Below are positions 4,894 through 9,985 of a DNA stretch of 64,000 nucleotides, piece after piece (position 1 is the first letter of the stretch; each line of letters begins with the position of its first letter). The notes under the pieces are model-generated. The model ran no database searches. It saw only the letters and a program-made list of their open reading frames with translations, and was not told the origin of the DNA. Made by a program: the position numbers and the translations under genes. The DNA is from Spirochaeta africana DSM 8902 (lineage in GTDB: Bacteria; Spirochaetota; Spirochaetia; DSM-27196; DSM-8902): contig NC_017098.1 of assembly GCF_000242595.2 (NCBI RefSeq), positions 2,437,501-2,501,500 on the forward strand. The letters run 5' to 3'.

Positions 4894-5958
4894 TTACAAA
4901 AAAATCCGGCGCCCATCACGAGAACTCTGCAGGGCAGCTTCGATTATCCTGATTCCGCACAACGCATCTGACAGATCTACCGGCAGCGGCGCGGTCCCGT
5001 CTATGGCTTCTGCAAATGCCCGATAGAATCGGGTATAGTCACCAGGTTGGTTTTCAGTCAGCTCTACCGGCTGAAGGTTCCCTGCCTCATCTACACGGCA
5101 CAGCTCTCCTCTACGATCAGCAGCATCGATCCCCCAGCCCGTATCCCCCTCAGGCCCTGCCGGTCGTCGCCCGGAACGCAGCGCGTCTTCCTGGGGATCC
5201 AAACCGTCTATCCGCCAGCTGCCACGGGTGCCGTAGACACGGAACCGATCGGTCTGAAACCTGGCCACAAAACAACCGCTGTGGAGAATCACCCTGGTCT
5301 GCGGATACTCCAGCAGGATATGAAAATAGTCTTCGATCTCGCTGCCGGCTCGAGTCGCGGCAACATCAGCGAACACCGATAACGGGGGGCCAAACAGCAC
5401 CAGCGCCTGATCTATGAGATGCGGCCCCAGATCATACAGGATCCCGCTGCCCGGCAGATTCTGCTCACGCCAGCGATCGCGAACATGGGGGCGATACCGG
5501 TCAAAATGGGAATGGAACTCCCGTATTTCTCCCAGCACCCCGTCAGCGATCAGCTGCTGAAGGGTCAGGAAATCGTTGTCATAGCGACGATTATGATACA
5601 CGCTGAGCTTCTTGCCCTGTTCAGCAGCGATGTGCTGCAACTGTTCGCCGTCATCGGCAGAAATCACCCAGGGCTTGTCGATTATCACGTGTTTCCCGGA
5701 TTCCAGTGCGGCCTGTGCAATCTCGAAATGGGTCGTGTTGGGCGAGGCCACCACCACCACATCAATATCGGGCATCTCCAGCAGGCTTTGATAATCCGGG
5801 CAGACCGCGGCATCCGGGTATGCCTGCGCCACTTCTGCTGCCCGACTGGTAACCACGGCGCGCAGCTGAAAACGACCGCTGCTGGTGAGTACGGGTGCAT
5901 GGAATGCGCTCCCTGCCAGCCCGAAGCCAACCAAACCTGCGTTATATACTGTTTCCAT
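4894..5958 (-). CDS. Gfo/Idh/MocA-family oxidoreductase
   Basis: NAD(P)-dependent sugar/polyol oxidoreductase family. The 354-residue protein has the dinucleotide-binding GFGLAG at residues 11-16, VVVASPNTTH at 67-77, and DKPW at 94-97 where the family has EKP with the catalytic lysine. GPHLIDQAL later carries the family's GxHxxD-type motif. It is closest in character to the YdgJ-like subgroup (GLVGFGLAG, IDKPW). Substrate cannot be read from the sequence. It has no Shine-Dalgarno sequence; TATACT ends six bases before the ATG. It is divergent from the PEP/pyruvate-binding gene with only 25 bases between start codons. Confidence 0.93.
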   Translation of the reverse strand: METVYNAGLVGFGLAGSAFHAPVLTSSGRFQLRAVVTSRAAEVAQAYPDAAVCPDYQSLLEMPDIDVVVVASPNTTHFEIAQAALESGKHVIIDKPWVISADDGEQLQHIAAEQGKKLSVYHNRRYDNDFLTLQQLIADGVLGEIREFHSHFDRYRPHVRDRWREQNLPGSGILYDLGPHLIDQALVLFGPPLSVFADVAATRAGSEIEDYFHILLEYPQTRVILHSGCFVARFQTDRFRVYGTRGSWRIDGLDPQEDALRSGRRPAGPEGDTGWGIDAADRRGELCRVDEAGNLQPVELTENQPGDYTRFYRAFAEAIDGTAPLPVDLSDALCGIRIIEAALQSSRDGRRIFL

Positions 5959-5983
5959 AGCCCAAGTATACTATACTTTCTGT
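5959..5983. promoter_or_regulatory. Overlapping divergent leaderless promoters on a 13-bp palindrome
   Basis: AGTATACTATACT at 5965-5977 is a perfect palindrome about its central base. Its left half read on the minus strand is TATACT, six bases from the ATG at 5958. Its right half read on the plus strand is TATACT, six bases from the ATG at 5984. Both genes lack Shine-Dalgarno sequences. One polymerase footprint would cover both -10 boxes, so the two promoters are probably mutually exclusive. Confidence 0.7.
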
Positions 5984-8560
5984 ATGCTTAATACACCGAT
6001 ATCGTCCGGAATTCCTGCGATCGACACCGCCTGCCACAGTCTGCTGGTCGGTGACAATGTGGTGTGGCGGAGCACCGACCACGAACTGTACAGCACGGTA
6101 TGCCTGGCGATGCTGCAGGTCGGTCGCGAGCAGCGCTGGCCGCTGGTGTACTTCCGGTTTGCCAATCATACCGCTATAACATCGGCAGCAGATGTCCAGG
6201 TATATCATCCGGAGCCCGAGAAGGGCTTCGAGCACTTCATCTCCATGATCCATCGGGTAATTGCATCACATGGAACCGGGGGTGTGTATGTGTTCGATTC
6301 TTTATCGGACTTGCAGGAGATGTATTTCAGTGACCGCATGATCGGCTGTTTCTTCGAGCTTACCTGTCCGTACCTGCGCCGCATGGAGACAATCGCGTAC
6401 TTCCGACTCGATCCATCTGCTCATTCGTGCTACGCAACCGAGCCTATTCGCCGAACCACCCAGGTCTGGCTTGATGCTTACACCTGTGCTGGAGAACGCT
6501 ACCTGCAGCCGCTAAAGACCTGGCACGATCCGGAGGGGAACACCCTGCCACTTTTCCACTGGGATGCTGATACCGCCCGGGAGGTGCAGAACAGTGCAAT
6601 CGAGTCGATGGTGCGCCAGTCGCCAGGCTGGAACGAGATGCCATCAACCAGCGAGCGTCAGATTGATGTATGGGATACTGCACTGATGCGGTTCGAGGAT
6701 CTGCAGCGATTATCCCAGGCACACAGTACACCACTCGAGCAAATCCCGGAACTGCAGCGCTTGTGGAACATCGCTGAACGAATGCTTTTGAGCACCCAGC
6801 CGCGCATGCTGGGATTGATTCACCGCTACATCACCCCTCAGGACATAGTCGGGCTCTGGAAACGGATGATAGGAACCGGTCAGATCGGCGGCAAAGCGGT
6901 TGGCATGCTGCTGTCTCGCGCGATTTTGCGGAAGCAGCATCCGCACATCCATGCCACGCTGGAGAATCATGATTCCTTTTTTATTGGTTCGGATGTCTTC
7001 TATACCTTCCTGGTAGAGAACGATTGCTGGTGGGATCGACGCGAGCTGCACGCCTCTCCCCAGAATGAATCTGCCTGCCGGATAGTCGCTGACCGGATGA
7101 AAACCGGCAGGTTTTCCCCGCAGATCATCCAGGGGTTTCGCGACCTCCTGGAGTATTTCGGTAATGCGCCGATCATTGTGCGCAGCAGCAGCTTGCTCGA
7201 GGACAACTTCGGGAATGCATTTGCCGGCAAATATGCCTCCTTCTTCCTGACCAATCAGGAGTCTGCTGAACGCAGGCTGCAGAAGCTGCTGGATGCAGTC
7301 CGGGAGATATATGCCGGCACGGTAAGCCCCGAAGCCCTGGCTTACCGTCGTGAACGCGGAGTTCTGGACCAGGATGAGCAGATGGCACTGCTGGTTCAAC
7401 GGGTCTCCGGGCGACGCCGCAAGGCCTGGTTTTTTCCCGATGCCGCAGGTGTGGGGCTTTCGCATAATCCGTATACCTGGAATGACCTTATGCAGGCATC
7501 GGCGGGAATGAGCCGGATGGTCGTCGGCCTGGGCACACGGGCAGTAGATCGCACCCAGGATGACTCCGCCCGCATCGTGGCACATGATCACCCGACCCTC
7601 AGCCCCGATGAATCCCGGCAGCACCGGCTGGATGCACTGGACCTGCAGACCGGCAGATTGACGCAAATTCCACTGCGTAATCCCGACGCTCTGCAACTGC
7701 CGGAAATCCTGCTGGAACGTGACTGGCGTCGTGAGCGTATGGCCCGGCAGATGGGGATCACCAGTTCTGCTCGGATCGGACTGGAACAGGCACTCGGCAG
7801 CAGCGAACTGCCTGCCGTTCTGGAACAGATTGGCAAGGTCCTGGAACAGGAGTACGGTACCCCGGTGGAATATGAATACACGGCTCAGTGGTCTGCTACT
7901 GAACCAGGGAGCGGCTACTGGCAACTGAACATAGTACAGTGCCGCCCATTCCAGATTACCACGACGAATGGTGCAGAAACGACGCATGAGGTCTTTGACC
8001 AGCTGGAGTCAGACAGCATTCTGATTCGCTGCCCGGGACCGATAATCGGGCATGGGCGACACCAGCAAATCGATGCAATAGTGTGGATTGATCCGGAGAG
8101 CTACAGCAGTCTTGAGGAATCCCGGCGCTATGTCGAGGCCGAACGGCTTGGTCAATGTATTCAAACCCTGCGACAGCAAGGTAAACGGATCTTCCTGTTC
8201 GGCCCCGGGCGCTGGGGCACCAGCACCCCCTCTATGGGCGTACCGGCCCGTTTCGGGCACATCCGGGGTATCACTGCCCTGGGCGAGCTGGACTGGATGC
8301 ACGACACCCTGTCCCCGGATCTCTCGCTTGGCACCCATTTCTTTCACGATCTGGTGGAGGAGGATGTACTGTATCTTGCGCTGCGGCGAAGTAGCAGCAG
8401 CATTAACTGGAATCGGCTGAACGAGGATGGGTACAGCTGGGAATCAGCCAGCCAGGGGCAGCATTCAGACAGCGTGCGCTGGTACTTTCCCCCAGATGAT
8501 CAGGAAATGTGGCTGGCTGCCGACCCTGCCGCACGCGAACTGGCAATCTACCTGAAATAA
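5984..8560 (+). CDS. PEP/pyruvate-binding-domain protein with degenerate RecA-like N-terminus
   Basis: 858 residues. Residues 1 to about 220 resemble a RecA/KaiC-like core (LLVGDNVVWRSTDHELYST, then GGVYVFDSLSD as a Walker-B-like strand), but the P-loop lysine is missing. The middle matches the ATP-grasp domain of PPDK/PEP synthase: GGKAVGMLLSR at about 305, and IIVRSSSLLEDNFGNAFAGKYAS at about 402-424. The swivelling phosphohistidine domain (GGxTSH) and the PEP/pyruvate barrel are absent. The C-terminus carries FGPGRWGTSTPSMGVP and GTHFFHDLVEED. It may bind or phosphorylate something other than pyruvate; function unknown. Transcript probably leaderless. Confidence 0.85.
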   Translation: MLNTPISSGIPAIDTACHSLLVGDNVVWRSTDHELYSTVCLAMLQVGREQRWPLVYFRFANHTAITSAADVQVYHPEPEKGFEHFISMIHRVIASHGTGGVYVFDSLSDLQEMYFSDRMIGCFFELTCPYLRRMETIAYFRLDPSAHSCYATEPIRRTTQVWLDAYTCAGERYLQPLKTWHDPEGNTLPLFHWDADTAREVQNSAIESMVRQSPGWNEMPSTSERQIDVWDTALMRFEDLQRLSQAHSTPLEQIPELQRLWNIAERMLLSTQPRMLGLIHRYITPQDIVGLWKRMIGTGQIGGKAVGMLLSRAILRKQHPHIHATLENHDSFFIGSDVFYTFLVENDCWWDRRELHASPQNESACRIVADRMKTGRFSPQIIQGFRDLLEYFGNAPIIVRSSSLLEDNFGNAFAGKYASFFLTNQESAERRLQKLLDAVREIYAGTVSPEALAYRRERGVLDQDEQMALLVQRVSGRRRKAWFFPDAAGVGLSHNPYTWNDLMQASAGMSRMVVGLGTRAVDRTQDDSARIVAHDHPTLSPDESRQHRLDALDLQTGRLTQIPLRNPDALQLPEILLERDWRRERMARQMGITSSARIGLEQALGSSELPAVLEQIGKVLEQEYGTPVEYEYTAQWSATEPGSGYWQLNIVQCRPFQITTTNGAETTHEVFDQLESDSILIRCPGPIIGHGRHQQIDAIVWIDPESYSSLEESRRYVEAERLGQCIQTLRQQGKRIFLFGPGRWGTSTPSMGVPARFGHIRGITALGELDWMHDTLSPDLSLGTHFFHDLVEEDVLYLALRRSSSSINWNRLNEDGYSWESASQGQHSDSVRWYFPPDDQEMWLAADPAARELAIYLK

Positions 8561-8638: not shown

Positions 8639-9985
<1,347 letters not shown>

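Follow-up and report, generated by a model that had tools for sequence, protein, structure and literature searches.

We found that a single perfect palindrome between two divergent genes of Spirochaeta africana DSM 8902 carries a complete TATACT hexamer on each strand, each exactly six bases from an ATG, and that the site is probably a bidirectional, doubly leaderless promoter of the sigma-70 type, with a strong −10 and a weak −35 on both sides. Judging from the sequence, RNA polymerase would engage the AT-rich palindrome facing either way, using the full TATACT of one strand or the other, and the usual 7-nt step from the −10 would make the A of each start codon the +1 position (5984 on the plus strand, 5958 on the minus strand). 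With these predicted starts both mRNAs would be leaderless and translated without a Shine-Dalgarno sequence. The site is a one-off intersection of two known kinds of element and not a new type of switch. Unless another locus is named, positions refer to the window, which is the whole stretch of 64,000 nucleotides analysed here.

Architecture of the intergenic palindrome

Direct reading of the DNA showed that positions 5965−5977, AGTATACTATACT, are symmetric around C5971, and that one extra symmetric base per side extends the dyad to the 15-bp AAGTATACTATACTT (5964−5978). The interval 5956−5986 reads CAT-AGCCCA-AGTATA-C-TATACT-TTCTGT-ATG. On the plus strand the six-base spacer TTCTGT separates the hexamer at 5972−5977 from the ATG at 5984−5986, and on the minus strand the six-base spacer TGGGCT separates the hexamer at 5970−5965 from the ATG at 5958−5956. 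The two complete −10 boxes adjoin with 1 bp between them, the gap from ATG to ATG is 25 bases, and the predicted starts are 26 bp apart. The sequence-only reading that had drawn attention to the site described this arrangement correctly, as a 13-bp palindrome with a TATACT on each strand six bases from its ATG and a 25-base gap between the start codons. A second, overlapping TATACT on the plus strand (5967−5972) would make the predicted start spacing 21 bp, and the palindromic stretch doubles as a TATAC tandem repeat.

Because TATA is its own reverse complement, half of a palindrome comes with any −10 box, and some of the symmetry therefore costs little. Boxes this perfect lying so close together are unusual, yet symmetry of this sort is easily reached given the self-complementarity of TATA. 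No further copy of the 15-mer was found in the 64-kb window at up to 3 mismatches, and the exact double arrangement (AGTATA/TATACT, N6 to an ATG on each side, hexamers 0−12 apart) turned up a single time among 198 genomes of the class.

Table 1. Features of the divergent region and its neighbourhood, in window coordinates
Feature	Position	Strand	Remarks
Gfo/Idh/MocA oxidoreductase, PRK11579/YdgJ-like, 354 aa	4894..5958	−	Pfam; NCBIfam NF008607 above cut-off; predicted leaderless, +1 = A of ATG
Best −35 candidate CTGTTT, weak	5949..5954	+	17-bp spacer; 41% of random genomic 40-mers reach the score
Palindrome AAGTATA-C-TATACTT, odd-centred, 15 bp	5964..5978		contains both −10 boxes
Predicted −10 TATACT of the oxidoreductase gene	5965..5970	−	six bases before ATG
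Predicted −10 TATACT of the PPDK_N-domain gene	5972..5977	+	six bases before ATG; −10 score above class median
PPDK_N-domain (ATP/pyruvate-binding) protein, 858 aa	5984..8560	+	Pfam PF01326, residues 300−669; predicted leaderless, +1 = A of ATG
Best −35 candidate TATTAA, weak	5988..5993	−	17-bp spacer; 27% of random genomic 40-mers reach the score
Glutamate dehydrogenase	8639..9976	−	Pfam; convergent neighbour of the plus-strand gene

Promoter quality was scored with a model trained on 44 leaderless promoters, with both halves of the palindrome left out. The total scores ranked 16/44 for the plus half and 22/44 for the minus half, the minus total being the higher of the two, and both halves are mid-range among the real leaderless promoters of the model. 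The TTG located about 17 bp upstream of the −10 in the sigma-70 type of this genome was found on neither side, the best candidates having P values of 0.41 (CTGTTT) and 0.27 (TATTAA); 5% of the members of the leaderless class scored still lower at −35 than CTGTTT, and 16% scored lower than TATTAA. A generic scan for 4-of-6 consensus matches returned no sigma-70 promoter at the site and was judged uninformative. In the 464-kb sample described below, no other two good promoters stood back to back within 40 bp with an ATG at each predicted +1. The core of the present site, AGTATA-C-TATACT, carries a −10 on both strands, as bidirectional promoters do.

Leaderless starts in the genome

The sample comprised 464 kb, consisting of the window and 20 evenly spaced 20-kb stretches from the single 3,285,855-bp contig; for candidate ATGs in frame, we tallied TANNNT by its distance upstream. 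It occurred 30 times at 6 nt and 16 times at 7 nt, as against ~8 elsewhere, these peaks being diluted because the gene starts were supplied by our own ORF caller, which includes wrong ones. The full TATACT was found 6 times at 6 nt versus ~0.6, and 0−3 times at any other distance, and genome-wide the pattern TATACT-N6-ATG occurred 62 times compared with 19 for the reversed control pattern. Alignment of the leaderless sites revealed a −35 TTG 17 bp upstream of the −10, plus a TG extension. The TTG appeared without being selected, and thus provides independent evidence that the sites are real promoters. The same TANNNT distance peak was present in a relative (G008). Shine-Dalgarno starts predominate in both genomes, indicating that leaderless genes form a minority class, perhaps a tenth. 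Three identical copies of one leaderless start, TATACTGTGTCTATG, lie at G000:C1 1290161, 1296461 and 1566631, which suggests a duplicated gene or a mobile element carrying a leaderless promoter.

Both genes flanking the palindrome show the features of this class: the −10 of each would put +1 on or next to the start codon, and no GGAG/GAGG/AGGA-like Shine-Dalgarno motif was present before either ATG. The earlier proposal of two putatively leaderless divergent genes, each with its −10 box in one palindrome, agrees with the statistics of the genome's own sequence.

Candidate divergent leaderless pairs and chance expectation

Among 45 divergent pairs of the sample, a leaderless candidate stood on the minus side in 13 and on the plus side in 7, with 2.0 doubles expected and 3 seen. 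Double leaderless pairs are thus about as frequent as independence predicts, and by this base rate the pair described here is not extraordinary. A genome-wide search for other double-leaderless sites gave, as sequence matches, 3 at 6/6 spacing, two at 7/7 and none at 7/6; of the 6/6 sites, lplA/pth is real and L135 was rejected for its conflict with the ORFs. The lplA/pth pair (L136:1503/1538; G000:C1 ~3273392−3273431), also the one further real case in the genome under a looser double form, is a second candidate for a compact leaderless pair. It is likewise divergent and has TANNNT six bases before both ATGs, with 34 nt between the starts, but its −10 boxes lie 10 nt apart, are imperfect (TATAGT and TACACT) and form no palindrome.

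The hisC gene (L041:8051−8071) appears leaderless by its −10 spacing, and its −10, ATAGTAT, overlaps a potential −10 of the opposite strand that points toward a membrane/acetyltransferase-like ORF, the predicted starts being 20 bp apart. Back-to-back −10 matches at 16, 18, 21 and 23 bp are common from motif symmetry alone.

Conservation of the two halves

The protein encoded on the plus strand falls far under every PEP synthase cut-off and has PPDK_N as its sole domain, which makes “PEP-binding protein”, the name used for it in the sequence-only reading, a loose label. The frame is open back to a GTG at 5885, and we placed the start at 5984 because the closest relatives begin with (V)LNQPFFSG and MILNQDFPSG, which align with the N-terminus MLNTPISSG. 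The protein begins in a KaiC-like way (SGxPxLD...GDNVVW), and no PEP-utiliser domain was recognised in it. It is spread over many phyla and neighbours glutamate dehydrogenase in several Spirochaetes: a gdhA-like gene also lies 3′ of the PPDK_N gene in L004, and the 3′ end of such a gene adjoins it in L007, L008, L010 and L013.

Most of the 40 relatives examined had an orthologue of the PPDK_N gene; the start of each orthologue was set at the ATG lying furthest upstream among those no more than 20 codons from a conserved anchor. TANNNT stood 5−8 nt before this ATG in 13/19 orthologues (the present gene counted) versus 0−3/19 in control offsets, several of the 19 being closely related, so that they represent ~5−6 independent families. 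The hexamer was mostly TATACT or TAGACT across several families; in three more orthologues a −10 box lay ~11−13 nt away, and two or three were led by a Shine-Dalgarno sequence. Retention of the box in these 13 genes points to the plus half as probably ancestral. The leaderless start of one PPDK_N-domain family, conserved across one Spirochaetes order, is probably the more durable finding of this work.

The ATG of the oxidoreductase is forced, since an in-frame TAG 12 nt upstream means that the protein cannot start further upstream. At the cut-off used, the oxidoreductase was found in five of the 40 relatives, in most of them with a Shine-Dalgarno-like motif before the start; these proteins are 40−45% identical and belong to a large family, which makes their orthology uncertain. 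Wherever both genes were found they lay on different contigs, and their adjacency was observed in 0 of the 40 relatives searched, leaving the minus half without comparative support. On the question of whether the palindrome is conserved, a scan of genome contigs gave nothing closer than 47% identity. Directly downstream of the oxidoreductase, on the minus strand, are genes for tRNA-Glu and tRNA-Lys (4639−4847).

We infer from these observations that the plus promoter would be the older one. The oxidoreductase gene probably arrived beside it later and would use the mirror −10, a box that the near-symmetry of the TATA core could readily supply.

Alternative readings of the palindrome

The plus half might be the sole promoter, with the mirror −10 a by-product of TATA producing at most antisense-like noise, and with the oxidoreductase transcript starting elsewhere, for example within the PPDK_N coding region. 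This would fit the conservation of the plus half alone among PPDK_N orthologues, the frequency with which motif symmetry generates back-to-back −10 matches, and the mostly Shine-Dalgarno-led starts of oxidoreductase relatives at other loci. However, the oxidoreductase lacks a Shine-Dalgarno sequence and has a stop codon 12 nt before its ATG; a longer leader would thus be poorly translated. Its −10 matches TATACT in full and lies at exactly the distance from ATG preferred by this genome, in a half whose total score exceeds that of the plus half. We consider this reading unlikely. Still less probable, and in our view very improbable, is an operator through which a dimeric repressor or activator governs both genes, although a perfect 15-bp dyad in a divergent intergenic region occupies a common operator position. 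No regulon emerged, as GTATACTATAC with 0−1 mismatch gave 17 + 17 matches on the two strands versus 12 + 4 for the reversed control, which is no clear excess; the only other exact copy in the genome lies, in a different register, upstream of a VapB-like antitoxin gene (L027:1289−1511) and is accounted for by its own TATACT-N6-ATG. No regulator gene flanks the palindrome, and the orthologues, which lack the palindrome, still keep the −10 box. The operator was rejected on the grounds that the dyad does not recur clearly above the control.

The sequence-only reading had further suggested that, because two polymerases cannot bind together, the genes may be expressed as alternatives. The part of this claim that stands is geometric: the promoter cores overlap physically, so that simultaneous occupancy is impossible and only one polymerase can be bound at a time. 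Exclusivity at the level of expression does not follow. Five E. coli bidirectional promoters were tested, and 5/5 were transcribed too little at the basal level for the two directions to compete; interference arose only once one direction was strongly activated (PMC12825309). At the present site the weakness of both −35 regions argues for low occupancy and against competition. No functional link was found between the oxidoreductase and the PPDK_N-domain gene. That competition for the site makes the two genes mutually exclusive seems quite improbable, and their expression as alternatives is unproven and the less probable outcome. We also doubt that the one palindrome sets both transcription starts and both translation starts, with 25 bp holding all initiation signals of the two genes and polymerase orientation setting the expression ratio. 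The bidirectional, doubly leaderless promoter set out at the beginning is the reading that we prefer, and under it the minus half would be active.

Comparison with known bidirectional and leaderless promoters

Bacterial bidirectional promoters have been defined by divergent starts 7−25 bp apart that arise from the near-symmetry of the −10 element (PMC12825309, PMC10268837), the commonest spacing being 18 bp, with 10 and 23 bp also preferred, and with one −10 element shared (PMC12825309). The site described here resembles the promoters studied by Warman, Grainger and colleagues in that a short core serves both strands and binding in one direction excludes the other. It differs from them in having two full boxes instead of a shared or overlapping −10, with predicted starts 26 bp apart, and in that both products are predicted leaderless mRNAs, whereas the divergent RNA of those promoters is often non-coding. 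The 26-bp spacing, which refers to predicted and not to mapped starts, is one base beyond the 7−25-bp definition. The description of the site as the most compact divergent promoter imaginable was overstated: published starts commonly lie 18, 10 or 23 bp apart and those predicted at hisC 20 bp apart, compared with 26 bp here.

Leaderless genes with TANNNT beside the start codon were recognised in 6/18 Spirochaetes genomes in a 2011 survey (PMC3160421). Such genes are also described in Deinococcus-Thermus; in Deinococcus a −10 adjacent to the ORF is supported experimentally, and an added −35 box enhances transcription (PMC12340547); a text search of that study for divergent, bidirectional or palindromic arrangements gave no match. 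Both genes at the palindrome share with these known leaderless genes (PMC3160421, PMC12340547) a −10 a few bases before the ATG, from which the mRNA would start at the start codon. The palindrome thus joins leaderless mRNAs and symmetric −10 bidirectional promoters, both already known, in one very compact site, and it offers a clear-cut way of asking whether −10 symmetry alone can supply a gene that comes to lie beside a leaderless promoter with its transcription start as well as its translation start.
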